Assembly (NCBI GenBank): GCA_002189035.1
Contig: NEEC01000223.1
Span: forward strand, 1 to 35,152
DNA length: 35,152 nucleotides
Origin: Utricularia gibba
Taxonomy: Eukaryota; Streptophyta; Magnoliopsida; Lamiales; Lentibulariaceae
Reading direction: 5' to 3'
Of this stretch, positions 5,681 through 35,143 are shown one piece after another (the first letter of the stretch is position 1; each line of letters starts with the position of its first letter). The notes beneath the pieces are model-generated. The model worked only from the letters and a program-made list of their open reading frames with translations. It ran no database searches and was not told where the DNA came from. The position numbers were made by a program, and so were the translations under genes.

Positions 5681-7534
5681 GATGCATTTGTTTCAATTAC
5701 GATATCACGTGCACCCACATGATTTTTTCGACAACTTACTTTATACATGGGGAGGCGGTCTTGGGGGGCAAGAGGAACCAGACAACGGTCATATTAGGCT
5801 TGGGCCGAAAGTAAGTTGTAGCCCGGCAAAAAAAGTGATGTATTTATTAACGTTCGGTTTTCAGGGTTGCCTACATGGTTTTCCAAGGAAAAGCTTTCGT
5901 TTGGCGGCCGCTCTCGCAGGGCACTTGGTCCGGGCCCCTGATTCTTTATGGCTCATGAGGACAAAAGGATGCAAATCGATGAAAATAATGATGCATTTGT
6001 TTAAATTACGATGTCGCGTGCACCCCAAATGATTTTTTAACAACATACTTTATACATGAGGAGGCGGTCTTGGGGGCACTTGGAACCGGAAAAAGATCAG
6101 CTTAGGCTTGGGCCGAAAGTAAGTTGTAGCCCGGCAAAGAAAGTGATGTATTTATTATCGTTCGGTTTTTGGGGTTGCCTACATGGTTTTTCAAGGAACA
6201 TCTTCTCGTTTTGTGGTGGCTAGTCTCGCTGGGAACATGGTCCTTGACCCCGATTCTGTATGGCTCATGGGGTCAACCGGATGCAAATCGAAGAAAAAAA
6301 TGATGCATTTGTTTAAATTACGATATCACGTGCACCCTACATGATTTTTTCGACAACTTACTTTATACATGGGGAGGCGGTCTTGGGGGTACCTGGAACC
6401 GGAAATGGTCAGCGTAGGCTTGGGCCGATAGTAAGTTGTAGCCCGAAATAAAGTAATGTATTTATTATCGTTCGGTTTTCGGAAGCTGCCTAAATGCTTT
6501 TTGAAAGAACATCTTCTCGTTTTATGGCGGCCAGTCTCGCTGGGAACTTGGTCCTTGACCCTGGTTCTGTATGGCTCATGGGGTCAACCGGATGCAAATC
6601 GATGAAAAAAATGATGCATTTGTTTAAATTGCGATATCACGTGCACCCCACATGATTTTTTCAACAACTTACTTTATACTTGAGGAGGCGATCTTAGGGT
6701 GCACCTCGAACAGGACAAAGGTAAGGTTTGGCTTGCGCCGAGAGTTAGTTGTAGCCCGACAAAGAAAGTGATGTATTTATTATCGTTCGGTTTTCGGGGT
6801 GCCTACATGGTTTTTAAGGAACGCTTCTCGTTTTGTGGTGGCCAGTCTCGCTGGGAACTTGGTCCTGACCCCGATTCTGTATGCTCATGGGTCAACCGGA
6901 TGCAAATCGATGAAAAAAAATGATGCATTTGTTTAAATTACGATATCACGTGCACCCCACATGATTTTTTCGACAACTACTTTATACATGAGGAGGCGTC
7001 TTGGGGCAGGAACCGGAAAAGGTCAGCTTTTGGCACCGATAGTAAGTTGTAGCCCGGCAAAGAAAGTGATGTATTTATTATCGTTCGGTTTACGGGGGCT
7101 TCCTACATGGTTTTTCAAGGAGCATCTTCTCGTTTTGTGGCAGCCAGTCTCGCTGGGAGCTTTGTCCTGGACCCCGATTCTGTATGGCTCATGGGGTCAA
7201 AAGGATGCAAATCGATGAATACAATGATGCATTTGTTTCAATTACGATATCACGTGCACCCCACATGATTTTTTCGACAACTTACTTTATACATGGGAGG
7301 CGGTCTTGGGGGGTACCTGGAACCGGAAAATGGTCAGCTTAGGCTTGGGCCGATAGTAAGTTTGTAGCCCGGCAAAGAAAGTGATGTATTTTATTATCGT
7401 TCGGTTTTCGGGGGTTCCTACATGGTTTTCAAGGAACATCTTCTCGTTTTGTGGCGCCAGTCTCGCTGGGCTTTGTCCTGGACCCCGATTCTGTATGGCT
7501 CATGGGTCAAAAGGATGCAAATCGATGAAACAAT
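5681..7534 (+). repeat. Higher-order repeat A-B-C-D-E-E (six monomers)
   Basis: Monomers start at 5681 (A), 5990 (B), 6302 (C), 6613 (D), 6922 (E with a shortened first half) and 7226 (E). Diagnostic sites are GCGGCCGC in A, 'cctaaatgctttttgaaag' in C, 'cctcgaacaggacaaagg' in D and 'gggagctttgtcctgg' in E. Confidence 0.8.
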
Positions 7535-18711: not shown

Positions 18712-20860
18712 GATGCATTTGTTTAAATTACGATATCACGTGCACCCTACATGATTTTTTCAACATACTTTATACATGGGAGGCGGTCTTGGGGGCACCT
18801 GGAACGGAAAGGTCAGCTAGGCTTGGGCCGATAGTAAGTTGTAGCCCGACAAATAAAGTGATGTATTTATTATCGTTCGGTTTTCGGGCTGCCTAAATGG
18901 TTTTTCAAAGAACATCTTCTCGTTTTGGCGGCCAGTCTCGCTGGGAACTTGGTCCTTGACCCTGATTCTGTATGGCTCATGGGTCAACCGGATGCAAATC
19001 GATGAAAAAAAATGATGCATTTGTTTAAATTGCGATATCACGTGCACCCCACATGATTTTTTCAACAACTTACTTTATACTTGAGGAGGCGGTCTTGGGG
19101 TGCACCTCGAACAGGACAAAGGTAAGGTTTGGCTTGCCGAGAGTAGTTGTAGCCCGACAAATAAAGTGATGTATTTATTATCGTTCGGTTTTCGGGGGCT
19201 TGCCTACATGGTTTTTCAAGGAACCTTCTCGTTTTGTGGTGGCCAGTCTCGCTGGGAACTTGGTCCTTGACCCCGATTCTGTATGCTCATGAGGTCAACC
19301 GGATGCAAATCAATTAAAAAAAATGATGCATTTGTTTAAATTACGATGTCACGTGCACCCCACATGATTTTTTAACAACATACTTTATACATGAGGAGGC
19401 GTCTTGGGTTTTGGAACGGGAAAAGGTAAGGTTTTGGCCCGAGAGTTAGTTGTAGCCGGCAAATAAAGTGATGTATTTATTATCGTTCGGTTTTCGGGGT
19501 TGCCTACATGGTTTTCCAAGGAACATCTTCTCGTTTGTGGCAGCCAGTCTCGCTGGGAGCTTTGTCCTGGACCCCGATTCTGTATGGCTCATGGGGTCAA
19601 AAGGATGCAAATCGATGAATACAATGATGCATTTGTTTAAATTACGATATCACGTGCACCCTACATGATTTTTTTTCGACAACTTACTTTATACATGGGG
19701 AGGCGGTCTTGGGGGTACCTGGAACCGGAAAATGGTCAGCTTAGGCTTGGGCCGATAGTAAGTTGTAGCCCGGCAAAGAAAGTGATGTATTTATTATCGT
19801 TCGGTTTTCGGGGCTGCCTACATGGTTTTTCAAGGAAATCTTCTCGTTTTGTGGTGGCTAGTCTCGCTGGGAACTTGTCCTGGACCCCGATTCTGTTATG
19901 GCTCATGGGGTCAACCGGATGCAAATCGAAGAAAAAAGATGCATTTGTTTAAATTACGATATCACGTGCACCCTTCATGATTTTTTCACAACATACTTTA
20001 TACATGAGGAGGCGTCTTGGGGACCTGGAACGGAGGTCAGGTAGGCTTGGGCCGAAGTAAGTTGTAGCCCGGCAAAGAAAGTGATGTATTTATTATCGTT
20101 CGGTTTTCGGGGCCTAATGGTTTTTGTCTTCTCGTTTTTGGCGGCCGCTCTCGCTGGGCACTTGGTCCGGGCCCCTGATTCTTTATGGCTCATGAGGACA
20201 AAATGATGCAAATCGATGAAAATAATGATGCATTTGTTTAAATTACGATGTCGCGTGCACCCCAAATGATTTTTTAACAACATACTTTATACATGAGGAG
20301 GCGGTCTTGGGGGCACTTGGAACCGGAAAAAGATCAGCTTAGGCTTGGGCCGAAAGTAAGTTGTAGCCCGGCAAAGAAAGTGATGTATTTATTATCGTTC
20401 GGTTTTTGGGGTTGCCTACATGGTTTTTCAAGGAACATCTTCTCGTTTTGTGGTGGCTAGTTTCGCTGGGAACTTGGTCCTTGACCCCGATTCTGTATGG
20501 CTCATGGGGTCAACCGGATGCAAATCGAAGAAAAAAAATGATGCATTTGTTTAAATTACGATATCACGTGCACCCTACATGATTTTTTCGACAACTTACT
20601 TTATACATGGGGAGGCGGTCTTGGGGGTACCTGGAACCGGAAAATGGTCAGCTTAGGCTTGGGCCGATAGTAAGTTGTAGCCCGGCAAAGAAAGATGTAT
20701 TTATTATCGTTCGGTTTTTGGGGCTGCCTAAATGTTTTTGAAAATCTTCTCGTTTTATGGCGGCCAGTCTCGCTGGGAACTTGTCCTTGACCCCGTTCTG
20801 TATGGCTCATGGGGTGATGAAAAAAAATGATGCATTTGTTTAAATTACGGTATCACGTGC
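18712..20860 (+). repeat. Block leading into copia copy 1: C-D-G/E-E'-A-like-B-junction monomer
   Basis: Monomers start at 18712 (C-like), 19014 (D), 19325 (G/E), 19626 (E'), 19938 (289 bp, E'-like start and A-type end, with clear internal losses near 20110-20150), 20227 (B) and 20540 (E-like first half). The last monomer lacks 16 bp at 20815/20816 ('ggggt' joined to 'gatga'). After the next anchor at 20829 the satellite stops at 20860, just past 'tatcacgtgc', where the copia fragment begins. Confidence 0.75.
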
Positions 20861-21595
20861 CCTGGTTATATTCATATTGTGCATTTTGGTGAGGAGAGCA
20901 GATTCACCATAAGTTTTCTCAACTTCATTACCATCTCTTAGTTCCAATCTCTTTTCTGTAGATTGCAACTCAATCATGATCTCTCTAAATGTTGGCTCTG
21001 GTGTAACAGGATATTCAGGATACAGCTGATGGAGCTTTCCTTCAATAATGTCAAGGATTTTTCTTTCTGTCTCAAGTGCACATAACTTTGGCTCGAATCT
21101 TGCAGGTAGGCTCATGATTGCCTTGCTAATCACCTTTTGATCCTCAAGTTTTTCCCCCAATCCTCGAATCTCCTTCACAAGCTTCGCAGTACGTTCATAA
21201 TAGACTTGTATGGTTTCATTGTCTAACATTTTGTTCCTCTCAAAGTCCTCCAGCTTGTTTTTGCATAATATCTCTCTGAGTTTGGCATCGCCTTCATAAT
21301 GGGATTTGAGAGTATCCCATATTTCTTTTGCTGATTGACACTCTGCAATATCATCAAATAGATGTTCAGAGATGGCTTGATACAAGGCATCCATTGCTTC
21401 ATCTTTTCTCTGTTGAAGATACTCAGCTTCCTCTTGCTGTTCTGATGTGGATTTGCTTGTTATTGTAATAGCCGGAATCTCCCTTTCAACAACATCCCAA
21501 ATCTTTCTGACCCGAAGGTAGCTGCGCATCTTTTTGACCCAGCTTCCATACTCTGAACCATCAAATATTGGAGGTCCTCTACCAGATGCCATCAT
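20840..21595 (-). CDS. gag: Copia Gag polyprotein, C-terminally truncated and fused to satellite
   Basis: This is a 251-codon open frame, the only intact gag among the four copies. The start is the first ATG (21595), with an in-frame stop upstream in the leader. Residues 11-23 (FDGSEYGSWVKKM) and the WDVVE motif at 33-37 match the N-terminal region of plant copia Gag. Residues from about 60 to 220, including AKEIWDTLKSHYEG, correspond to the UBN2-type Gag domain that assembles the virus-like particle in the cytoplasm. The CCHC zinc knuckle and everything after it are missing. Residues 1-245 come from the element. The last six (ARDTVI) and the stop codon come from satellite DNA. An intact frame does not show expression. 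An RNA-binding knuckle would be needed for normal packaging, so function is doubtful. Confidence 0.85.
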   Translation of the reverse strand: MMASGRGPPIFDGSEYGSWVKKMRSYLRVRKIWDVVEREIPAITITSKSTSEQQEEAEYLQQRKDEAMDALYQAISEHLFDDIAECQSAKEIWDTLKSHYEGDAKLREILCKNKLEDFERNKMLDNETIQVYYERTAKLVKEIRGLGEKLEDQKVISKAIMSLPARFEPKLCALETERKILDIIEGKLHQLYPEYPVTPEPTFREIMIELQSTEKRLELRDGNEVEKTYGESALLTKMHNMNITRARDTVI

Positions 21596-21624
21596 AGCCA
21601 CCGCTTGACAAGCTTTGGGTTGAT

Positions 21625-21643
21625 ACTTGGTAATCTACCAAGT
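21625..21643 (-). other. Hairpin in the gag leader (copy 1)
   Basis: An 8-bp inverted repeat with a 3-nt loop (acttggta-atc-taccaagt) lies between the PBS and the gag ATG. It is present in all four copies (also 28461-28479, 31598-31616 and 34738-34756). Leader hairpins can serve in RNA dimerisation or packaging, but nothing here proves that. Confidence 0.5.
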
Positions 21644-21701
21644 AAAAAACGCTGAACGGTATATAAAATACTGAAACGAACACAGGTTTGAGAACCTTAC
21701 T

Positions 21702-21713
21702 GCTCTGATACCA
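21702..21713 (-). other. Primer-binding site, initiator-Met tRNA type (copy 1)
   Basis: The minus strand reads TGGTATCAGAGC immediately after the LTR end. This is the complement of the 3' end of plant initiator-Met tRNA and the usual primer site for minus-strand synthesis in plant copia elements. Confidence 0.9.
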
Positions 21714-22038
21714 TGTTGTTGCAAGAAAAATAGAGTCTTGGGAAGTAACAAAAAGGTAATGCTTATGAGATCACCTTGGATGAAAAACGACTCATGAACA
21801 ATAAGAATGACCGAAAACCTAATTGACATGCATTTCTAGTAGGGCTTATATATACCAAATACCTAGGTTACCCAACAGTGGGCCACAATCATTGAAAACA
21901 CACAAAAAGCCCAACAACTCGAATCCAACACTTCCATGCTCGAACCCAACACCTTTTTTTATCTGAAATATGACATTATGACACAAGTTTAGTTCTTCCA
22001 ATCACCTTCAAGCTTTGGATTGAGGCTGATCTCCAACA
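21714..22038 (-). repeat. Copia 5' LTR, copy 1 (325 bp, complete)
   Basis: On the minus strand it opens TGTTGGAGATCAG and ends GCAACAACA, giving the short inverted terminal repeat TGTTG/CAACA expected of LTRs. The PBS lies directly after it. A TATA-like box lies inside. Only this LTR of the original pair remains. Confidence 0.85.
21846..21854 (-). promoter_or_regulatory. TATA-like box in LTR, copy 1
   Basis: The minus strand reads TATATATAA inside the LTR, about 130 bp before its 3' end, where a U3 promoter is expected. Transcription would run leftwards through gag into satellite. Activity is inferred only from the motif and its position. Confidence 0.6.
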
Positions 22039-22104
22039 CTTGGTCCGAGCCCCTGATTCTTTATGGCTCATGAGGACAAAAGGATGCAAATCGATGAATA
22101 CAAT

Positions 22105-22419
22105 GATGCAATTGTTTAAATTACGATATCACGTGCACCCTACATGATTTTTTCAACAACTTACTTTATACTTGAGGAGGTGGTCTTGGGGGGCAAGAGG
22201 AACCGGACAAAGGTCAGCTTATGCTTGGGTCGAAAGTAAGTTGTAGCCTGACAAAGAAAGTGATCTATTTATTAACGTTCGGTTTTCGGGGCTACCTACA
22301 TGGTTTTTCAAGGAACCGCTTCTCGTTTTGTGGCGGCCAGTCTCGCTGGGAACTTGGTCCTTTACCCCGATTCTGTATGGCTCATGAGGTCAACCGAATG
22401 CAAATCGATTAAAAAAAAT
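22105..22419 (+). repeat. LTR-flanking private monomer I, copy 1
   Basis: This monomer carries mutations found only beside the copia LTR: CAATTG in place of 'catttg' after the anchor, 'cttatgcttgggtcg', 'gtagcctgacaaag', 'gtgatctatttatt' and 'cctttaccccgatt'. The same set recurs at 28940-29254 and 32078-32391, so the monomer has been copied together with the copia fragment. Confidence 0.85.
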
Positions 22420-23043
22420 GATGCATTTGTTTAAATTGCGATATGACGTGCACCCACATGATTTTTTTCAACAACTTACTTTATACTTGGGGAGGCGGTC
22501 TTGGGTGCACCTGGAACGGGACAAAGGTCAGCTTAGGCTTGGGCAGAAGTAAGTTGTAGCCCGCAAATAAAGTGATAAATTTGATATCGTTCGGTTTTCG
22601 GGCTACCTACATGGTTTTTAAGGAACCGCTTCTCGTTTTGTGGCGGCCAGTCTCGCTGGGAACTTGGTCTTTGACCCCGATTCTGTATGGCTCATGAGGT
22701 CAACCGGATGCAAATCGATTAAAAAAAATGATGCATTTGTTTAAATTGCGGTATGACGTGCACCCACATGATTTTTTTCAACAACTTACTTTATACTTGA
22801 GGAGGCGGTCTTGGGGTGCACCTGGAACGGGACAAAGGTCAGCTTAGGCTTGGGCAGAAAGTAAGTTGTAGCCCGGCAAAGAAAGTGATGTATTTATTAT
22901 CGTTCGGTTTTTGGGGGCTGCCTACATGGTTTTTCAAGGAACCGCTTCTCGTTTTGTGGTGGCCAGTCTCGCTGGGAACTTGTCCTGGACCCCGATTCTG
23001 TATGGCTCATGGGTCAACCGGATGCAAATCGAAGAAAAAAAAT
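22420..23043 (+). repeat. Adjacent pair of closely similar monomers with altered G-box
   Basis: The two monomers (22420-22729 and 22730-23043) both read 'tatgacgtgcacccac' where the rest of the array reads 'tatcacgtgcacc', so CACGTG is lost. Both have 'gcacctggaacgggacaaaggtc' type sequence and 'gggcag' in place of 'gggccg'. They look like a recent local duplication. Confidence 0.7.
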
Positions 23044-23352
23044 GATGCATTTGTTTAAATTACGATATCACGTGCACCCACATGATTTTTTCGACAACTT
23101 ACTTTATACATGGGAGGCGGTCTTGGGGTGCACCTGGAACGGGACAAAGGTAGCTTAGGCTTGGCAGAAAGTAAGTTGTAGCCCGGCAAAGAAAGTGATG
23201 TATTTATTATCGTTCGGTTTTTGGGGGCTGCCTACATGGTTTTTCAAGGAAAATCTTCTCGTTTTGTGGTGGCTAGTCTCGCTGGGAACTTGTCCTGGAC
23301 CCCGATTCTGTATGGCTCATGGGTCAACCGGATGCAAATCGAAGAAAAAAAT

Positions 23353-24593
23353 GATGCATTTGTTTAAATTACGATATCACGTGCACCCTACATGATTTTT
23401 TCGACAACTTACTTTATACATGGGGAGGCGGTCTTGGGGGTACCTGGAACGGAAAATGGTCAGCGTAGGCTTGGGCCGATAGTAAGTTGTAGCCCGACAA
23501 ATAAAAGTAATGTATTTATTATCGTTCGGTTTTCGGGCTGCCTAAATGCTTTTTGAAAGAACATCTTCTCGTTTTATGGCGGCCAGTCTCGCTGGGAACT
23601 TGGTCCTTGACCTGATTCTGTATGGCTCATGGGGTCAACCGGATGCAAATCGATGAAAAAAAATGATGCATTTGTTTAAATTGCGATATCACGTGCACCC
23701 CACATGATTTTTTCAACAACTTACTTTATACTTGAGGAGGCGATCTTGGGTGCAGAACGGACAAAGGTAAGGTTTGGCTTGCGCCGAAAGTTAGTTGTAG
23801 CCCGACAAATAAAGTGATGTATTTATTATCGTTCGGTTTTCGGGGGCTGCCTACATGGTTTTTCAAGGAACCGCTTCTCGTTTTGTGGTGGCCAGTCTCG
23901 CTGGGAACTTGGTCCTTGACCCCGATTCTATATGCTCATGAGGTCAACCGGATGCAAATCAATTAAAAAAAATGATGCATTTGTTTAAATTACGATGTCA
24001 CGTGCACCCACATGATTTTTTTAACAACATACTTTATACATGAGGAGGCAGTCTTTGGGTGCATTTGGAACGGGAAAGGTAAGTTTTGCGTGCACCGAGA
24101 GTTAGTTGTAGTCCGGCAAATAAAGTGATGTATTTATTATCGTTCGGTTTTCGGGGTTGCCTACATGGTTTTTCAAGGAACATCTTCTCGTTTTGTGGCA
24201 GCCAGTCTCGCTGGGAGCTTTGTCCTGGACCCCGATTCTGTATGGCTCATGGGGTCAAAAGGATGCAAATCGATGAATACAATGATGCATTTGTTTAAAT
24301 TACGATATCACGTGCACCCTACATGATTTTTTCGACAACTTACTTTATACATGGGGAGGCGGTCTTGGGGGGTACCTGGAACCGGAAAGGTCAGCTTAGG
24401 CTTGGGCCGATAGTAAGTTGTAGCCCGGCAAAAAAGGGATGTATTTATTATCGTTCGGTTTTTGGGGCTGCCTACATGGTTTTTCACGGAAATCTTCTCG
24501 TTTTGTGGTGGCTAGTCTCGCAGGGAACCTTGTCCTCGACCCCGATTCTGTATGGCTCATGGGTCAACCGGATGCAAATCGAAGAAAAAAAAT
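23353..24593 (+). repeat. Block C-D-G/E-E' in array 2
   Basis: Monomers start at 23353 (C), 23665 (D, first half shortened near 23753), 23974 (G first half, E second half) and 24284 (E'). The same order occurs at 13757 and 17483, and in looser form at 18712. This links the array to the right of the first copia copy with the one to its left. Confidence 0.7.
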
Positions 24594-26117
24594 GATGCAT
24601 TTGTTTAAATTATCACGTGTACATGATTTTTTCGACAACTTTATACATGGGGAGGCGGTCTTGGGGGGTACCTGGAACTGGAAAATGGTCAGCGTAGGCT
24701 TGGGCCGATAGTAAGTTGTAGCTAAGTAATGTATTTATTATCGTTCGGTTTTCGGAAGCTGCCTAAATGCTTTTTGAAAGAACATCTTCTCGTTTTATGG
24801 CGGCCAGTCTCGCTGGGAACTTGGTCCTTGACCCTGGTTCTGTATGGCTCAGGGGTCCGGATGCAAATCGATGAAAAAAAATGATGCATTTGTTTAAATT
24901 GCGATATCACGTGCACCCCACATGATTTTTTCAACAACTTACTTTATACTTGAGGAGGCGATCTTAGGGTGCACCTCGAACAGGACAAAGGTAAGGTTTG
25001 GCTTGCGCCGAGAGTTAGTTGTAGCCCGACAAATAAAGTGATGTATTTATTATCGTTCGGTTTTCGGGGGCTGCCTACATGGTTTTTCAAGGAACCGCTT
25101 CTCGTTTTGTGGTGGCCAGTCTCGCTGGGAACTTGGTCCTTGACCCCGATTCTGTATTGCTCATGAGGTCAACCGGATGCAAATCAATTAAAAAAAATGA
25201 TGCATTTGTTTAAATTACGATGTCACGTGCACCCCACATGATTTTTTAAACAACATACTTTATACATGAGGAGGCAGTCTTTGAGTGCATTTGGAACGGG
25301 ACAAAGGTAAGGTTTTGCGTGCACCGAAAGTAAGTTGTAGCCCGGCAAAGAAAGTGATGTATTTATTAACGTTCGGTTTTCAGGGTTGCCTACATGGTTT
25401 TCCAAGGAAAGCTTTTCGTTTTGTGGCGGCCGCTCTCGCTGGGACTTGGTCCGGGCCCGATTCTTTATGGCTCATGAGGAAAAATGATGCAAATCGATGA
25501 AAATAATGATGCATTTGTTTAAATTACGATGTCGCGTGCACCCCAAATGATTTTTTTAACAACTACTTTATACTGAGGAGGCGGTCTTGGGGGGCACTTG
25601 GAACCGGAAAAATCAGCTTAGGCTTGGGCCGAAAGTAAGTTGTAGCCCGGCAAAGAAAGTGATGTATTTATTATCGTTCGGTTTTTGGGGTTGCCTACAT
25701 GGTTTTTCAAGGAACATCTTCTCGTTTTGTGGTGGCTAGTCTCGCTGGGAACTTGGTCCTTGACCCGATTCTGTATGGCTCATGGGGTCAACCGGATGCA
25801 AATCGAAGAAAAAAAATGATGCATTTGTTTAAATTACGATATCACGTGCACCCTTTTTCACAACTTACTTTATACATGGGGAGGCGGTCTTGGGGTACCT
25901 GGAACCGGAAGGTCAGCTTAGGCTTGGGCCGATAGTAAGTTGTAGCCCGGCAAAGAAAGTGATGTATTTATTATCGTTCGGTTTTTGGGGGCTGCCTACA
26001 TGGTTTTTCAAGGAAAATCTTCTCGTTTTGTGGTGGCTAGTCTCGCAGGGAACTTGTCCTCGACCCGATTCTGTATGGCTCATGGGGTCAACCGGATGCA
26101 AATCGAAGAAAAAAAAT
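24594..26117 (+). repeat. Pentamer C-D-G/A-B-E' not linked to copia
   Basis: Monomers start at 24594 (C, 289 bp with several deletions), 24883 (D), 25199 (G first half, A second half), 25508 (B) and 25818 (E'). The same C-D-G/A-B series follows at 26118, 1524 bp further on, and again in the composite units at 29255 and 32392. Here it ends in an ordinary E' monomer with no copia junction, so it may represent the pre-insertion repeat. Confidence 0.75.
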
Positions 26118-27700
26118 GATGCATTTGTTTAAATTACGATATCACGTGCACCCTACATGATTTTTTTCGACAACTTACTTTATACATGGGGAGGCGGTCT
26201 TGGGGGGTACCTGGAACTGGAAAATGGTCAGCGTAGGCTTGGGCCGATAGTAAGTTGTAGCCCGACAAATAAAGTAATGTATTTATTATCGTTCGGTTTT
26301 CGGAAGCTGCCTAAATGCTTTTTGAAAGAACATCTTCTCGTTTATGGCGGCCAGTCTCGCTGGGAACTTGGTCCTTGACCCTGGTTCTGTATGGCTCATG
26401 GGGTCAACCGGATGCAAATCGATGAAAAAAAATGATGCATTTGTTTAAATTGCGATATCACGTGCACCCACATGATTTTTTCAACAACTTACTTTATACT
26501 TGAGGAGGCGATCTTAGGGTGCACCTCGAACAGGACAAAGGTAAGGTTTGGCTTGCGCCGAGAGTTAGTTGTAGCCCGACAAATAAAGTGATGTATTTAT
26601 TATCGTTCGGTTTTCGGGGCTGCCTACATGGTTTTTCAAGGAACCGCTTCTCGTTTTGTGGTGGCCAGTCTCGCTGGGAACTTGGTCCTTGACCCCGATT
26701 CTGTATTGCTCATGAGGTCAACCGGATGCAAATCAATTAAAAAAATGATGCATTTGTTTAAATTACGATGTCACGTGCACCCCACATGATTTTTTTAACA
26801 ACATACTTTATACATGAGGAGGCAGTCTTTGAGTGCATTTGGAACGGGACAAAGGTAAGGTTTTGCGTGCACCGAAGTAAGTTGTAGCCCGGCAAAGAAA
26901 GTGATGTATTTATTAACGTTCGGTTTTCAGGGTTGCCTACATGGTTTTCCAAGGAAAAGCTTTTCGTTTTGTGGCGGCCGCTCTCGCTGGGCACTTGGTC
27001 CGGGCCCCTGATTCTTTATGGCTCATGAGGACAAAATGATGCAAATCGATGAAAATAATGATGCATTTGTTTAAATTACGATGTCGCGTGCACCCCAAAT
27101 GATTTTTTTAACAACATACTTTATACATGAGGAGGCGGTCTTGGGGGGCACTTGGAACCGGAAAAATCAGCTTAGGCTTGGGCCGAAAGTAAGTTGTAGC
27201 CCGGCAAAGAAAGTGATGTATTTATTATCGTTCGGTTTTGGGGTTGCCTACATGGTTTTTCAAGGAACATCTTCTCGTTTTGTGGTGGCTAGTTTCGCTG
27301 GGAACTTGGTCCTTGACCCCGATTCTGTATGGCTCATGGGGTCAACCGGATGCAAATCGAAGAAAAAAAATGATGCATTTGTTTAAATTACGATATCACG
27401 TGCACCCTACATGATTTTTTCGACAACTTACTTTATACATGGGGAGGCGGTCTTGGGGGGTACCTGGAACCGGAAAATGGTCAGCTTAGGCTTGGGCCGA
27501 TAGTAAGTTGTAGCCCGGCAAAGAAAGTGATGTATTTATTATCGTTCGGTTTTTGGGGCTGCCTAAATGTTTTTGAAGGAACATCTTCTCGTTTTATGGC
27601 GGCCAGTCTCGCTGGGAACTTGGTCCTTGACCCCGTTCTGTATGGCTCATGGGGTGATGAAAAAAAATGATGCATTTGTTTAAATTACGGTATCACGTGC
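26118..27700 (+). repeat. Pentamer C-D-G/A-B-junction monomer before copia copy 2
   Basis: Monomers start at 26118 (C), 26434 (D), 26747 (G/A), 27060 (B) and 27372 (junction monomer, 297 bp). The last anchor at 27669 is followed by satellite only to 27700. The junction monomer lacks 16 bp after 'catggggt' and the following sequence reads 'acggtatcacgtgc', as at copy 1. Confidence 0.8.
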
Positions 27701-28431
27701 CCTGGTTATATTCATATTGTGCATTTTGGTGAGGAGAGCAGATTCACCATAAGTTTTCTCAACTTCATTACCATCTCTTAGTTCCAATCTCTTTTCTGTA
27801 GATTGCAACTCAATCATGATCTCTCTAAATGTTGCTCTGGTGTAACAGGATATTCAGGATACAGCTGATGGAGCTTTCCTTCAATAATGTCAAGGATTTT
27901 TCTTTCTGTCTCAAGTGCACATAACTTTGCTCGAATCTTGCAGGTAGGCTCATGATTGCCTGCTAATCACCTTTTGATCCTCAAGTTTTTCCCCCAATCC
28001 TCGAATCTCCTTCACAAGCTTCGCAGTACGTTCATAATAGACTTGTATGGTTTCATTGTCTAACATTTTGTTCCTCTCAAAGTCCTCCAGCTTGTTTTTG
28101 CATAATATCTCTCTGAGTTTGGCATCGCCTTCATAATGGGATTTGAGAGTATCCCATATTTCTTTTGCTGATTGACACTCTGCAATATCATCAAATAGAT
28201 GTTCAGAGATGGCTTGATACAAGGCATCCATTGCTTCATCTTTTCTCTGTTGAAGATACTCAGCTTCCTCTTGCTGTTCTGATGTGGATTTGCTTGTTAT
28301 TGTAATAGCCGGAATCTCCCTTTCAACAACATCCCAAATCTTTCTGACCCGAAGGTAGCTGCGCATCTTTTGACCCAGCTTCCATACTCTGAACCATCAA
28401 ATATTGGAGGTCCTCTACCAGATGCCATCAT
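27680..28431 (-). pseudogene. gag: Copia gag, copy 2, frameshifted
   Basis: This is the counterpart of the copy 1 gag frame. Single-base losses relative to copy 1 break it near 28367-28371 (T run close to the N-terminus), near 27960, near 27928 and near 27833. The longest surviving stretch, 27950-28366, keeps most of the UBN2-type region (MRSYLRVRKIWDVVE through GLGEKLEDQKV). The frame would otherwise end in satellite as in copy 1. The losses are mostly at short runs of one base, so some may be sequencing errors rather than true mutations. Confidence 0.75.
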
Positions 28432-28537
28432 AGCCACCGCTTGACAAGCTTTGGGTTGATACTTGGTAATCTACCAAGTAAAAAACGCTGAACGGTATAT
28501 AAAATACTGAAACGAACACAGGTTTGAGAACCTTACT

Positions 28538-28549
28538 GCTCTGATACCA
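28538..28549 (-). other. Primer-binding site, initiator-Met tRNA type (copy 2)
   Basis: The minus strand reads TGGTATCAGAGC directly after the LTR, identical to copy 1. Confidence 0.9.
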
Positions 28550-28873
28550 TGTTGTTGCAAGAAAAATAGAGTCTTGGGAAGTAACAAAAAGGTAATGCTT
28601 ATGAGATCACCTTGGATGAAAAACGACTCATGAACAATAAGAATGACCGAAAACCTAATTGACATGCATTTCTAGTAGGGCTTATATATACCAAATACCT
28701 AGGTTACCCAACAGTGGGCCACAATCATTGAAAACACACAAAAAGCCCAACAACTCGAATCCAACACTTCCATGCTCGAACCAACACCTTTTTTTATCTG
28801 AAATATGACATTATGACACAAGTTTAGTTCTTCCAATCACCTTCAAGCTTTGGATTGAGGCTGATCTCCAACA
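28550..28873 (-). repeat. Copia 5' LTR, copy 2 (324 bp)
   Basis: It has the same TGTTG/CAACA termini as copy 1. One C is missing in 'gaaccaacacc'. Otherwise it appears near-identical by eye. Confidence 0.85.
28682..28690 (-). promoter_or_regulatory. TATA-like box in LTR, copy 2
   Basis: The minus strand reads TATATATAA at the same LTR position as in copy 1. Leftward transcription would enter the 5.66 kb satellite array 2. Confidence 0.6.
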
Positions 28874-30834
28874 CTTGGTCCGAGCCCCTGATTCTTTATG
28901 GCTCATGAGGACAAAAGGATGCAAATCGATGAATACAATGATGCAATTGTTTAAATTACGATATCACGTGCACCCTACATGATTTTTTCAACAACTTACT
29001 TTATACTTGAGGAGGTGGTCTTGGGGGGCAAGAGGAACCGGACAAAGGTCAGCTTATGCTTGGGTCGAAAGTAAGTTGTAGCCTGACAAAGAAAGTGATC
29101 TATTTATTAACGTTCGGTTTTCGGGGCTACCTACATGGTTTTTCAAGGAACCGCTTCTCGTTTTGTGGCGGCCAGTCTCGCTGGGAACTTGGTCCTTTAC
29201 CCCGATTCTGTATGGCTCATGGGGTCAACCGGATGCAAATCGAAGAAAAAAAATGATGCATTTGTTAAATTACGATATCACGTGCACCCTACATGATTTT
29301 TTCGACAACTTACTTTATACATGGGGAGGCGGTCTTGGGGGTACCTGGAACTGGAAAATGGTCAGCGTAGGCTTGGGCCGATAGTAAGTTGTAGCCCGAC
29401 AAATAAAGTAATGTATTTATTATCGTTCGGTTTTCGGAAGCTGCCTAAATGCTTTTTGAAAGAACATCTTCTCGTTTTATGGCGGCCAGTCTCGCTGGGA
29501 ACTTGGTCCTTGACCCTGGTTCTGTATGGCTCATGGGGTCAACCGGATGCAATCGATGAAAAAAAATGATGCATTTGTTTAAATTGCGATATCACGTGCA
29601 CCCCACATGATTTTTTCAACAACTTACTTTATACTTGAGGAGGCGATCTTAGGGTGACGGGACAAAGGTAAGGTTTGGCTTGCGCCGAGAGTTAGTTGTA
29701 GCCCGACAAATAAAGTGATGTATTTATTATCGTTCGGTTTTCGGGGGCTGCCTACATGGTTTTTCAAGGAACCGCTTCTCGTTTTGTGGTGGCCAGTCTC
29801 GCTGGGAACTTGGTCCTTGACCCCGATTCTGTATGCTCATGAGGTCAACCGGATGCAAATCAATTAAAAAAAATGATGCATTTGTTTAAATTACGATGTC
29901 ACGTGCACCCCACATGATTTTTTTAACAACATACTTTATACATGAGGAGGCAGTCTTTGAGTGCATTTGGAACGGGACAAAGGTAAGGTTTTGCGTGCAC
30001 CGAAAGTAAGTTGTAGCCCGGCAAAGAAAGTGATGTATTTATTAACGTTCGGTTTTCAGGGTTGCCTACATGGTTTTCCAAGGAAAAGCTTTTCGTTTTG
30101 TGGCGGCCGCTCTCGCTGGGCACTTGGTCCGGGCCCCTGATTCTTTATGGCTCATGAGGACAAAATGATGCAAATCGATGAAAATAATGATGCATTTGTT
30201 TAAATTACGATGTCGCGTGCACCCCAAATGATTTTTTTAACAACATACTTTATACATGAGGAGGCGGTCTTGGGGGGCACTTGGAACCGGAAAAAGATCA
30301 GCTTAGGCTTGGGCCGAAAGTAAGTTGTAGCCCGGCAAAGAAAGTGATGTATTTATTATCGTTCGGTTTTTGGGGTTGCCTACATGGTTTTTCAAGGAAC
30401 ATCTTCTCGTTTTGTGGTGGCTAGTTTCGCTGGGAACTTGGTCCTTGACCCCGATTCTGTATGGCTCATGGGGTCAACCGGATGCAAATCGAAGAAAAAA
30501 AATGATGCATTTGTTTAAATTACGATATCACGTGCACCCTACATGATTTTTTCGACAACTTACTTTATACATGGGGAGGCGGTCTTGGGGGTACCTGGAA
30601 CCGGAAAATGGTCAGCTTAGGCTTGGGCCGATAGTAAGTTGTAGCCCGGCAAAGAAAGTGATGTATTTATTATCGTTCGGTTTACGGGGGCTTCCTAAAT
30701 GCTTTTTGAAAGAACATCTTCTCGTTCTATGGCGGCCAGTCTCGCTGGGAACTTGGTCCTTGACCCTGGTTCTGTATGGCTCATGGGGTGATGAAAAAAA
30801 ATGATGCATTTGTTTAAATTACGGTATCACGTGC
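28874..30834 (+). repeat. Satellite array 3 between copia copies 2 and 3 (I-C-D-G/A-B-junction)
   Basis: After the partial A-like end, monomers start at 28940 (I), 29255 (C), 29568 (D, first half shortened near 29655), 29875 (G/A), 30189 (B) and 30504 (junction monomer, E first half and C-type second half, 16-bp loss at 30789/30790). The last anchor is at 30803 and satellite ends at 30834. At about 29220 the sequence switches from the copy-1-type I monomer to sequence matching array 2 near 26080. Confidence 0.9.
28940..29254 (+). repeat. LTR-flanking private monomer I, copy 2
   Basis: It carries the same private changes as 22105-22419, up to about 29215. From there its tail reads 'ggggtcaaccggatgcaaatcgaag', whereas copy 1 reads 'gaggtcaaccgaatgcaaatcgatt'. 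The switch marks the exchange point. Confidence 0.85.
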
Positions 30835-31568
30835 CCTGGTTATATTCATATTGTGCATTTTGGTGAGGAGAGCAGATTCACCATAAGTTTTCTCAACTTC
30901 ATTACCATCTCTTAGTTCCAATCTCTTTTCTGTAGATTGCAACTCAATCATGAACTCTCTAAATGTTGGCTCTGGTGTAACAGGATATTCAGGATACAGC
31001 TGATGGAGCTTTCCTTCAATAATGTCAAGGATTTTTCTTTCTGTCTCAAGTGCACATAACTTTGGCTCGAATCTTGCAGGTAGGCTCATGATTGCCTTGC
31101 TAATCACCTTTTGATCCTCAAGTTTTTCCCCCAATCCTCGAATCCCTTCACAAGCTTCGCAGTACGTTCATAATAGACTTGTATGGTTTCATTGTCTAAC
31201 ATTTTGTTCCTCTCAAAGTCCTCCAGCTTGTTTTTGCATAATATCTCTCTGAGTTTGGCATCGCCTTCATAATGGGATTTGAGAGTATCCCATATTTCTT
31301 TTGCTGATTGACACTCTGCAATATCATCAAATAGATGTTCAGAGATGGCTTGATACAAGGCATCCATTGCTTCATCTTTTCTCTGTTGAAGATACTCAGC
31401 TTCCTCTTGCTGTTCTGATGTGGATTTGCTTGTTATTGTAATAGCCGGAATCTCCCTTTCAACAACATCCCAAATCTTTCTGACCCGAAGGTAGCTGCGC
31501 ATCTTTTTGACCCAGCTTCCATACTCTGAACCATCAAATATTGGAGGTCCTCTACCAGATGCCATCAT
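30814..31568 (-). pseudogene. gag: Copia gag, copy 3, one frameshift
   Basis: Compared with copy 1, a single T is missing near 31143-31146 (within the codons for the KEIRGLGEKL region). This splits the gene into an N-terminal frame (31104-31568 from the ATG) and a C-terminal frame (30814-31134). One base difference near 30953 changes an Ile of copy 1 to Phe. The N-terminal FDGSEYGSW motif and the AKEIWDTLKSHYEG segment are intact in the first part. The C-terminus ends in satellite-derived residues as in copy 1. With only one lost base, an error in the sequence is a plausible alternative to a true pseudogene. Confidence 0.75.
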
Positions 31569-31674
31569 AGCCACCGCTTGACAAGCTTTGGGTTGATACT
31601 TGGTAATCTACCAAGTAAAAAACGCTGAACGGTATATAAAATACTGAAACGAACACAGGTTTGAGAACCTTACT

Positions 31675-31686
31675 GCTCTGATACCA
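31675..31686 (-). other. Primer-binding site, initiator-Met tRNA type (copy 3)
   Basis: The minus strand reads TGGTATCAGAGC directly after the LTR end. Confidence 0.9.
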
Positions 31687-32011
31687 TGTTGTTGCAAGAA
31701 AAATAGAGTCTTGGGAAGTAACAAAAAGGTAATGCTTATGAGATCACCTTGGATGAAAAACGACTCATGAACAATAAGAATGACCGAAAACCTAATTGAC
31801 ATGCATTTCTAGTAGGGCTTATATATACCAAATACCTAGGTTACCCAACAGTGGGCCACAATCATTGAAAACACACAAAAAGCCCAACAACTCGAATCCA
31901 ACACTTCCATGCTCGAACCCAACACCTTTTTTTATCTGAAATATGACATTATGACACAAGTTTAGTTCTTCCAATCACCTTCAAGCTTTGGATTGAGGCT
32001 GATCTCCAACA
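31687..32011 (-). repeat. Copia 5' LTR, copy 3 (325 bp)
   Basis: It is the same length as in copy 1, with TGTTG/CAACA termini. I saw no difference from copy 1 by eye. Confidence 0.85.
31819..31827 (-). promoter_or_regulatory. TATA-like box in LTR, copy 3
   Basis: The minus strand reads TATATATAA at the same LTR position as in the other copies. Leftward transcription would enter gag and then satellite array 3. Confidence 0.6.
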
Positions 32012-33975
32012 CTTGGTCCGAGCCCCTGATTCTTTATGGCTCATGAGGACAAAAGGATGCAAATCGATGAATACAATGATGCAATTGTTTAAATTACGAT
32101 ATCACGTGCACCCTACATGATTTTTTCAAAACTTACTTTATACTTGAGGAGGTGGTCTTGGGGGGCAAGAGGAACCGGACAAAGGTCAGCTTATGCTTGG
32201 GTCGAAAGTAAGTTGTAGCCTGACAAAGAAAGTGATCTATTTATTAACGTTCGGTTTTCGGGGCTACCTACATGGTTTTTCAAGGAACCGCTTCTCGTTT
32301 TGTGGCGGCCAGTCTCGCTGGGAACTTGGTCCTTTACCCCGATTCTGTATGGCTCATGGGGTCAACCGGATGCAAATCGAAGAAAAAAAATGATGCATTT
32401 GTTTAAATTACGATATCACGTGCACCCTACATGATTTTTTCGACAACTTACTTTATACATGGGGAGGCGGTCTTGGGGGGTACCTGGAACTGGAAAATGG
32501 TCAGCGTAGGCTTGGGCCGATAGTAAGTTGTAGCCCGACAAATAAAGTAATGTATTTATTATCGTTCGGTTTTCGGAAGCTGCCTAAATGCTTTTTGAAA
32601 GAACCTTCTCGTTTTATGGCGGCCAGTCTCGCTGGGAACTTGGTCCTTGACCCTGGTTCTGTATGGCTCATGGGGTCAACCGGATGCAAATCGATGAAAA
32701 AAAATGATGCATTTGTTTAAATTGCGATATCACGTGCACCCCACATGATTTTTTCAACAACTTACTTTATACTTGAGGAGGCGATCTTAGGGTGCACCTC
32801 GAACAGGACAAAGGTAAGGTTTGGCTTGCGCCGAGAGTTAGTTGTAGCCCGACAAATAAAGTGATGTATTTATTATCGTTCGGTTCGGGGGCTGCCTACA
32901 TGGTTTTTCAAGGAACCGCTTCTCGTTTTGTGGTGGCCAGTCTCGCTGGGAACTTGGTCCTTGACCCCGATTCTGTATTGCTCATGAGGTCAACCGGATG
33001 CAAATCAATTAAAAAAAATGATGCATTTGTTTAAATTACGATGTCACGTGCACCCCACATGATTTTTTTAACAACATACTTTATACATGAGGAGGCAGTC
33101 TTTGAGTGCATTTGGAACGGGACAAAGGTAAGGTTTTGCGTGCACCGAAAGTAAGTTGTAGCCCGGCAAAGAAAGTGATGTATTTATTAACGTTCGGTTT
33201 TCAGGGTTGCCTACATGGTTTTCCAAGGAAAAGCTTTTCGTTTTGTGGCGGCCGCTCTCGCTGGGCACTTGGTCCGGCCCCTGATTTCTTTATGGCTCAT
33301 GAGGACAAAATGATGCAAATCGATGAAAATAATGATGCATTTGTTTAAATTACGATGTCGCGTGCACCCAAATGATTTTTTTAACAACATACTTTATACA
33401 TGAGGAGGCGGTCTTGGGGGCACTTGGAACCGGAAAAAGATCAGCTTAGGCTTGGGCCGAAAGTAAGTTGTAGCCCGGCAAAGAAAGTGATGTATTTATT
33501 ATCGTTCGGTTTTTGGGTTGCCTACATGGTTTTTCAAGGAACATCTTCTCGTTTTGTGGTGGCTAGTTTCGCTGGGAACTTGGTCCTTGACCCGATTCTG
33601 TATGGCTCATGGGGTCAACCGGATGCAAATCGAAGAAAAAAAATGATGCATTTGTTTAAATTACGATATCACGTGCACCCTACATGATTTTTTCGACAAC
33701 TTACTTTATACATGGGGAGGCGGTCTTGGGGGTACCTGGAACCGGAAAATGGTCAGCTTAGGCTTGGCCGATAGTAAGTTGTAGCCCGGCAAAGAAAGTG
33801 ATGTATTTATTATCGTTCGGTTTTCGGGGGCTTCCTAAATGCTTTTTGAAAGAACATCTTCTCGTTCTATGGCGGCCAGTCTCGCTGGGAACTTGGTCCT
33901 TGACCCTGGTTCTGTATGGCTCATGGGGTGATGAAAAAAAATGATGCATTTGTTTTAAATTACGGTATCACGTGC
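32012..33975 (+). repeat. Satellite array 4 between copia copies 3 and 4
   Basis: After a partial A-like end, monomers start at 32078 (I), 32392 (C), 32706 (D), 33020 (G/A), 33334 (B) and 33645 (junction monomer, 16-bp loss at 33929/33930). The last anchor is at 33943 and satellite stops at 33975. Its order is identical to array 3, with only small scattered differences. Confidence 0.92.
32078..32391 (+). repeat. LTR-flanking private monomer I, copy 3
   Basis: It has the same CAATTG, 'cttatgcttgggtcg' and 'gtgatctatttatt' markers as 22105 and 28940, with the array-3-type tail 'aatcgaag'. Confidence 0.85.
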
Positions 33976-34708
33976 CCTGGTTATATTCATATTGTGCATT
34001 TTGGTGAGGAGAGCAGATTCACCATAAGTTTTCTCAACTTCATTACCATCTCTTAGTTCCAATCTCTTTTCTGTAGATTGCAACTCAATCATGATCTCTC
34101 TAAATGTTGGCTCTGGTGTAACAGGATATTCAGGATACAGCTGATGGAGCTTTCCTTCAATAATGTCAAGGATTTTTCTTTCTGTCTCAAGTGCACATAA
34201 CTTTGGCTCGAATCTTGCAGGTAGGCTCATGATTGCCTTGCTAATCACCTTTTGATCCTCAAGTTTTTCCCCCAATCCTCGAATCTCCTTCACAAGCTTC
34301 GCAGTACGTTCATAATAGACTTGTATGGTTTCATTGTCTAACATTTTGTTCCTCTCAAAGTCCTCCAGCTTGTTTTTGCATAATATCTCTCTGAGTTTGG
34401 CATCGCCTTCATAATGGGATTTGAGAGTATCCCATATTTCTTTGCTGATTGACACTCTGCAATATCATCAAATAGATGTTCAGAGATGGCTTGATACAAG
34501 GCATCCATTGCTTCATCTTTTCTCTGTTGAAGATACTCAGCTTCCTCTTGCTGTTCTGATGTGGATTTGCTTGTTATTGTAATAGCCGGAATCTCCCTTT
34601 CAACAACATCCCAAATCTTTCTGACCCGAAGGTAGCTGCGCATCTTTTGACCCAGCTTCCATACTCTGAACCATCAAATATTGGAGGTCCTCTACCAGAT
34701 GCCATCAT
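33955..34708 (-). pseudogene. gag: Copia gag, copy 4, frameshifted
   Basis: Two single-T losses relative to copy 1 break the frame. One lies in the T run at 34645-34648 near the N-terminus, a change shared with copy 2. The other lies near 34439-34443, in the codons for QSAKEIWD. The open parts left are about 34338-34643 and 33955-34455. Together they cover the UBN2-type region and the satellite-derived C-terminus. The shared N-terminal loss could mean common descent of copies 2 and 4, or a recurrent sequencing error at the same T run. Confidence 0.75.
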
Positions 34709-34814
34709 AGCCACCGCTTGACAAGCTTTGGGTTGATACTTGGTAATCTACCAAGTAAAAAACGCTGAACGGTATATAAAATACTGAAACGAACACAGGT
34801 TTGAGAACCTTACT

Positions 34815-34826
34815 GCTCTGATACCA
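34815..34826 (-). other. Primer-binding site, initiator-Met tRNA type (copy 4)
   Basis: The minus strand reads TGGTATCAGAGC directly after the LTR end. Confidence 0.9.
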
Positions 34827-35143
34827 TGTTGTTGCAAGAAAAATAGAGTCTTGGGAAGTAACAAAAAGGTAATGCTTATGAGATCACCTTGGATGAAAAA
34901 CGACTCATGAACAATAAGAATGACCGAAAACCTAATTGACATGCATTTCTAGTAGGGCTTATATATACCAAATACCTAGGTTACCAACAGTGGGCCACAA
35001 TCATTGAAACACAAAAAGCCCAACAACTCGAATCCAACACTTCCATGCTCGAACCCAACACCTTTTTTATCTGAAATATGACATTATGACAAGTTTAGTT
35101 CTTCAATCACCTTCAAGCTTTGGATTGAGGCTGATCTCCAACA
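34827..35143 (-). repeat. Copia 5' LTR, copy 4 (317 bp)
   Basis: TGTTG/CAACA termini are present. It is about 8 bp shorter than the LTR of copy 1, with losses in the part between the TATA-like box and the outer end (for example 'ttaccaacag' and 'gacaagtttag'). Confidence 0.85.
34959..34967 (-). promoter_or_regulatory. TATA-like box in LTR, copy 4
   Basis: The minus strand reads TATATATAA at the same LTR position as in the other copies. Leftward transcription would enter gag and then satellite array 4. Confidence 0.6.

Follow-up and report, generated by a model that had tools for sequence, protein, structure and literature searches.

In the bovine 1.711b satellite, an inserted fragment of retroviral type bearing a long terminal repeat (LTR) is fixed in the satellite unit, with constant junctions. 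ATHILA, an LTR element of the Ty3/gypsy type, is said to lie within the satellite of Arabidopsis centromere arrays, where some copies were reportedly duplicated with the satellite after insertion. For the rye pSc200 and pSc250 arrays, the available sections of one study (PMC4857426) describe junctions that frequently fall on LTR termini, where spacers are short or absent, and multimeric units of 2–8 monomers, for which illegitimate recombination was proposed. Satellites derived from tandem repeats inside LTR retrotransposons are described in the accessible part of a Lathyrus study (PMC7004042), and composite satellite monomers, parts of which resemble transposable elements, in the accessible part of a review (PMC12692304). 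The stretch considered here (“the window”) is the 35,152-nt contig NEEC01000223.1 of Utricularia gibba, or C513 (C numbers denote contigs of the 100.09-Mb assembly, which has 516). In it, a piece of a copia retrotransposon recurs within a satellite of about 312 bp. Very probably it was inserted once, truncated once, and then amplified as satellite, its copies spreading with the array and not by transposition.

A copia fragment within the satellite

The whole 35 kb is a single satellite of about 312 bp, broken up by a 1.17-kb copia fragment that is present four times. Tandem Repeats Finder (TRF) gives a period of 312 and 109 copies over positions 1–33929, nhmmer finds 101 monomer matches, all on the plus strand, and the anchor TATCACGTGC matches 88 times in the window at one mismatch or fewer, against 1.15 expected by chance. 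Positions within the satellite are quoted on its consensus of 314 bp. The inserts, and the anatomy of the first of them, are as follows (“ordinary” copies of the family are those lacking the satellite junctions described below).

20861–22038, minus strand: insert copy 1, copia 5' LTR, primer-binding site and partial gag (nhmmer)
27701–28873, minus strand: insert copy 2 (nhmmer and right-junction pattern)
30835–32011, minus strand: insert copy 3, with haplotype AT, taken as intermediate, at two variable sites (nhmmer and site comparison)
33976–35143, minus strand: insert copy 4, with 9 bp of satellite between it and the contig end (nhmmer)
21714–22038, minus strand: LTR of copy 1, 325 bp, with TG...CA termini and its natural outer end at 22038 (outer end common to 20/20 fetched ordinary copies)
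21702–21713, minus strand: primer-binding site TGGTATCAGAGC, adjoining the LTR
20861–21592, minus strand: partial gag that starts with an ATG at 21592 and breaks off at the left junction, Retrotran_gag_2 (PF14223; Pfam)

The gag is of copia type (PF14223, E = 1.9e-27, 96.3 bits against a cut-off of 27), and the primer-binding site TGGTATCAGAGC is presumably a match to the plant initiator tRNA-Met. No pol is present. Copies 2–4 are 99.2–100% identical to copy 1, with one substitution; the other differences are small gaps, probably errors of the long-read consensus. The gag frame of copy 1 is open for 250 codons, about six of them in satellite, while in copies 2, 3 and 4 it stops after 43, 153 and 43 codons, presumably because of small assembly gaps. 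The LTR contains a TATA-like stretch and is directed through gag into satellite in each unit.

Both edges of the insert are constant. On the left, satellite TATCACGTGC passes into gag, and on the right the LTR end CCAACA passes into CTTGG, identically in all four copies of the window. A sequence-only reading of the window had proposed as much, namely four copies on one strand with shared junctions and two consecutive periods of 3134 and 3141 bp; the copies do start at 20861, 27701, 30835 and 33976, and both periods agree with the measured spacings. Its prediction for the rest of the assembly held as well. The left junction has 25 matches, in C15, C21, C39, C477 and C513, all in plus orientation and all with no mismatch although up to three were allowed; the reversed pattern, used as a control, has no match in the assembly. 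All 24 copies that can be read at their right edge have the right junction; a pattern search found 22 of them, the others being C477:191272, with a one-base deletion, and copy 4 of the window, where the contig ends after 9 bp. In the 25th copy, in C21, the contig end falls inside the insert and the right junction is unreadable. Junctions constant on both sides (25/25 on the left, 24/24 readable on the right) are those of a composite satellite.

The LTR meets the satellite with its outer end at position 227, and gag meets it at position 10, so that about 216 bp of the monomer (consensus 11–226) are missing, in phase. At the point where gag breaks off, most ordinary copies have TGCACCTGAGG or TGCACCTGAGT, the satellite has TGCACCC, and the joint reads TGCCCTGG, which is the product of a TGCACC exchange minus three bases. 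This is suggestive of end joining near the short shared sequence TGCACC.

The parent copia family

Of 211 first-look candidates, 40 were scored, and the resulting listing of the family contains 16 satellite copies, 24 ordinary full-length matches and four fragments. Comparisons with ordinary copies use 20 that were fetched of these 24. All 20 run past the break of the insert into a common stretch (280 bp compared, 96–100% alike), here called element body and not gag, and no match to this stretch was found in the 170 kb of satellite contigs read. At the right, all 20 end at the LTR terminus CAACA and continue into non-satellite DNA. These right flanks differ from one copy to another, with the exception of two copies, L011 and L014, which may represent one insertion that was copied, since their flanks start alike.

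The primer site and adjoining LTR have 82 matches in the assembly at three mismatches or fewer, 24 in satellite contigs and 58 elsewhere. Several large contigs have them in clusters (10/10 on C4 within 68 kb, 7/7 on C402 within 45 kb and 5/7 on C2 within 91 kb), unlike C451, where four are scattered over 1.8 Mb. Copies elsewhere with other target sites had been named in the sequence-only reading as grounds for abandoning a single event. Such copies do exist, as the 58 matches outside the satellite contigs show, but having no satellite junctions and keeping the next 280 bp, the fetched ones are the parent family of the insert and not evidence against it. Transposition of a ready-made truncated element was also considered and rejected, the satellite flanks being common on both sides and none of the 20 fetched ordinary copies being truncated at that point. 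Among the fetched copies, the one nearest to the satellite insert is L005 (C510:93282–94458, 13 substitutions in 1176 bp); its contig has satellite relatives at both ends.

A single origin for the inserts

The 24 complete inserts were compared, leaving out the cut C21 copy and not scoring gaps as differences, since the small ones were judged probable assembly errors. Substitutions among them are found at only two sites, 120 and 969. At sites 19, 42, 69, 985 and 997 one base is common to all 24, and this base is absent from 20/20, 20/20, 20/20, 19/19 and 19/20 readable ordinary copies, respectively. The satellite next to the insert is distinctive as well:

20816–20860, plus strand: last part of a monomer that has lost 16 bp between 20815 and 20816; it reaches the left junction TATCACGTGC

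A monomer with this deletion lies directly before 25 of 25 inserts, allowing one edit. In the satellite contigs read for variants and for the element stretch (170,101 bp), all 22 strict matches to the deleted form are within 100 bp of an insert and none was found away from one, while the normal form of the same monomer has 266 matches at two substitutions or fewer. Separate insertions are made unlikely by the five common bases and by the deletion in the monomer next to the insert; together with the junctions, these features support the earlier proposal of a single event followed by amplification.

The two variable sites give an order to the inserts. Ordinary copies have A at site 120 in 18 of 20 and C at site 969 in 16 of 18 readable cases, and because these bases are the commonest there, AC is taken as the ancestral insert type, AT (two copies) as intermediate and TT as derived. 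AC, AT and TT are present and TC is absent, which fits stepwise change from AC. In one further insert, site 120 is T and site 969 falls in a gap.

Higher-order repeats

Within the window, successive inserts are spaced at 6840, 3134 and 3141 bp, which divides the satellite between them into these parts:

27701–30834, plus strand: higher-order repeat unit of six monomers, 3134 bp
30835–33975, plus strand: higher-order repeat unit of six monomers, 3141 bp
22039–27700, plus strand: satellite separating copies 1 and 2, made up of 18 full monomers and a partial one, not a six-monomer unit

The first spacing is not a pair of short units (2 x 3137 = 6274), having 18 full monomers where the other two have six each. 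Over four contigs, 20 intervals between successive inserts were read. Eight are six-monomer intervals of 3113–3149 bp, in C513, C39 and C477, and four are eight-monomer intervals of 3764–3779 bp, in C477. Monomers at equal positions are very similar, with mean identities per unit pair of 0.981–1.000 for six-monomer units and 0.991–0.999 for eight-monomer ones, compared to 0.882–0.903 at unequal positions and an average of 0.896 between adjacent monomers within a unit (a monomer pair entered the means only if it shared more than 80 columns, and the partial monomer that opens each unit was counted only in the comparison of equal positions). Monomers 98–100% alike at equal positions and 88–90% alike at unequal ones indicate a higher-order repeat, and its units are repeated head to tail in 12 of the 20 intervals.

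With monomer types set at a 97.5% cut-off, short units read pCAEJB followed by Z or P, with one of the eight reading pC.QJBP, and long units read pCUQRSMBA, with one of the four reading pCWQR.MBA. The block AEJB of the six-monomer unit is also found without an adjoining insert. The long-unit group has AC inserts. In the short-unit group most inserts are TT, but one (C477:188146) is AC and two are AT; the presence of AC and AT among the short units implies that the two groups have exchanged sequence or have a common history. The suggestion that the retroelement has become a component of the tandem repeat is thus strengthened by the likeness of monomers at equal positions, but needs to be qualified, as the insert is confined to a part of the satellite and the unit is of variable size.

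The rest of the window is without inserts:

1–20860, plus strand: insert-free array of the ~312-bp satellite with monomer patterns of its own (TRF, nhmmer, monomer types)

Here and in a second insert-free region (C477:128655–173083), short monomer patterns recur, for example SDBAFG, IDYF and HAEJB.

History of the array and alternative explanations

A copia element, from a family clustered on several large contigs, would have entered a ~312-bp monomer in reverse orientation, so that the outer end of its 5' LTR came to adjoin satellite position 227. A deletion starting within gag would then have taken the remainder of the element and about 216 bp of satellite, perhaps with whole monomers besides, leaving gag fused to satellite position 10 close to TGCACC. 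The resulting chimeric block, marked by its neighboring monomer with the 16-bp deletion, was then duplicated together with adjoining satellite, probably by unequal exchange or conversion, and this amplification gave at least two unit types, one of eight monomers with the ancestral insert type and one of six monomers mostly with the derived type.

The physical copies may be fewer than the junction count, since parts of the contigs match each other. C513 is colinear with C477:147079–185021 over 96 monomer pairs (median identity 0.990, mean 0.987, with 5 and 17 monomers unpaired), C39 with C477:172150–187221 over 36 pairs (median 1.000), and C15 with C477:102596–117029 over 32 pairs (median 0.994, 3 and 5 unpaired); C21 matches C477 over six monomer pairs only. 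C513 was rejected as a plain duplicate of C477 on the basis of the 1.3% mean monomer difference and the unpaired monomers, and for the same reasons looks like an allele or related locus rather than the same reads assembled twice. Instead of five loci, the 25 copies may represent one or two that are present in several versions. In both C513 and C477 the contig end comes soon after an insert, and 25 is the count in assembled contigs.

Several observations weigh against the history outlined above. The colinearity of C513, C39 and C15 with parts of C477 means that the 25 copies may be fewer physical ones; the structure is that of the assembly, which has many small gaps between copies. Eight of the 20 intervals are irregular, their counts of full monomers being 9, 10, 12, 13, 14, 14, 18 and 139, and among the twelve regular units two differ from the rest in monomer types. 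At the left joint, three bases of the simple TGCACC product are absent, leaving the microhomology only suggestive, and because one end of the element has been lost in the satellite copies, a 5-bp target-site duplication is unreadable.

Separate insertions, by a copia element preferring one position in the monomer, would draw on a parent family that has many copies (the 82 primer-site/LTR matches), is partly clustered and may favor such regions. There is next to no chance that this is the correct explanation, however: it would require the same internal truncation point in 25 of 25 copies, one that all 20 fetched ordinary copies pass straight through, along with the same five-site bases in 24 of 24 inserts against those of the ordinary copies and the same 16-bp-deletion neighbor before all 25, and it is rejected on the shared internal breakpoint and flanks. 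An origin of the tandem copies, or of the agreement between contigs, in the assembler, from duplicated or mis-joined long reads in satellite, is more worth considering given the colinearity of C513 and C39 with C477, the frequent small gaps and the contig ends soon after an insert. It is still very unlikely, since C513 differs from C477 by substitutions as well as by unpaired monomers, and C477 by itself has 13 insert copies, falling into two groups that differ in unit length and, for the most part, in insert type.

The other two alternatives concern the route and not the single origin, and are somewhat less improbable. The truncated form could stem from an incomplete cDNA that was captured where the satellite had broken, instead of being the remnant of a complete insertion after deletion. 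One end is a perfect LTR terminus, the other is internal and near a short shared sequence, and no target-site duplication is visible, all of which speak for such a capture; yet the retained 5' LTR and gag are simply explained by ordinary integration followed by deletion, and the in-phase loss of about 216 bp of satellite fits a deletion running into the array. Neither point is decisive, and capture is given a small but appreciable chance. Similarly, amplification could have gone through an extrachromosomal circular DNA (eccDNA), with rolling-circle copying and reinsertion, rather than unequal exchange within the array. Neighboring units are nearly identical (up to 0.999) and the two unit groups in C477 are 44 kb apart, as a circle might produce, but the orientation with respect to the satellite is the same for all 25 copies, and the variable monomer numbers and the AC insert among six-monomer units look like exchange in place, which makes the circle an unlikely though not negligible route. 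The common junctions, the single origin, the higher-order structure and the polarity of the insert types are shown directly, while deletion as the cause of the truncation and unequal exchange as the route of amplification are inferred.

The satellite and its chromosomal setting

The satellite is abundant. A 23-mer from it has 4050 + 3230 = 7,280 matches in the assembly at two mismatches or fewer, which at 312 bp each amounts to over 2 Mb. Among the matches listed, exact ones only, it is found on C7, C8, C10 and C11, with C1–C6 not among them; as the first are on C7, exact matches on C1–C6 are unlikely, and diverged ones possible. Ten samples of 1.2–1.5 kb from otherwise unread parts of C477, C15, C21 and C39 all contain satellite, nine of them at 94–100%. 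The tenth, C477:1–1500 (L040), is satellite for only 885 bases, and about 600 bp of non-satellite DNA (C477:887–1500) adjoins the satellite there, near the contig start. No sampled piece of these four contigs resembles a chromosome arm, most of C477:1–95000 being outside the sampling. A known RNA gene in the satellite was rejected, as an Rfam scan of the window gave no RNA gene match at gathering score, a null result with which a ribosomal-spacer origin is still compatible.

Both ends of C3 and C4, and one end each of C1 and C2, carry the plant telomere repeat TTTAGGG. Diverged sequences related to the satellite, scoring about 80–265 bits in the longer matches compared to 315–356 bits for full monomers of L052, are present at four of 20 contig ends checked (C402 right, C414 left and C460 both) and at three of 13 further readable ends of large contigs (C213 right, with the telomere on its left, and C510 both). 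On C402, the copia cluster lies at 2.546–2.591 Mb, and samples at 2.610 and 2.620 Mb, not that at 2.600 Mb, contain satellite relatives; none was found in two samples of the C4 copia cluster or one of the C413 cluster. This distribution suggests that some arrays sit at an inner, pericentromeric place. Diverged satellite at contig ends, on C402 just past a cluster of the same copia family, could possibly mark unassembled centromeres.

According to the accessible part of PMC8333044, the putative centromeres of Utricularia gibba are without satellite repeats, a statement on which an abundant satellite of about 312 bp bears. A rather improbable but consequential idea is that the LTR of the insert might transcribe satellite in every unit, aid silencing or centromere chromatin, and in this way have favored its own amplification. 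If so, a satellite-transcribing LTR would be acting in a plant for which centromeric satellites have been described as absent.

Comparison with known systems

Satellite units are already known, in principle, to incorporate transposable elements; what is new here is this instance, in which the steps are unusually clear. Among the titles and opening lines of abstracts that a literature search listed, none concerns this satellite or insert, most subscription journals being outside its coverage. The case is well resolved, with the parent family, the internal breakpoint, the marker deletion, the insert types and two unit lengths all visible, so that much of the order of events can be read.

Compared to the bovine 1.711b satellite, the insert here is a plant copia 5' LTR with a piece of gag, present in few assembly copies and in units of several lengths. 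Compared to ATHILA in Arabidopsis, it is a copia fragment that recurs in regular higher-order units. The rye pSc200 and pSc250 arrays are similar in having junctions at an LTR terminus and multimeric units, but in the sections available of that study (PMC4857426), elements flank the arrays at many junctions and no non-array DNA was encountered inside the monomer arrays of the sequenced bacterial artificial chromosomes (BACs), whereas here one embedded pair of junctions is repeated. As in Lathyrus, a retroelement contributes satellite sequence; there, as far as the accessible part of the account goes, the monomer itself comes from the element (PMC7004042), while the Utricularia satellite also exists without it. 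The composite monomers described in the accessible part of the review (PMC12692304) also have element sequence within the satellite unit, with the difference that the piece here is 1.17 kb long and retains an intact LTR end, and that the other monomers of its unit are plain.

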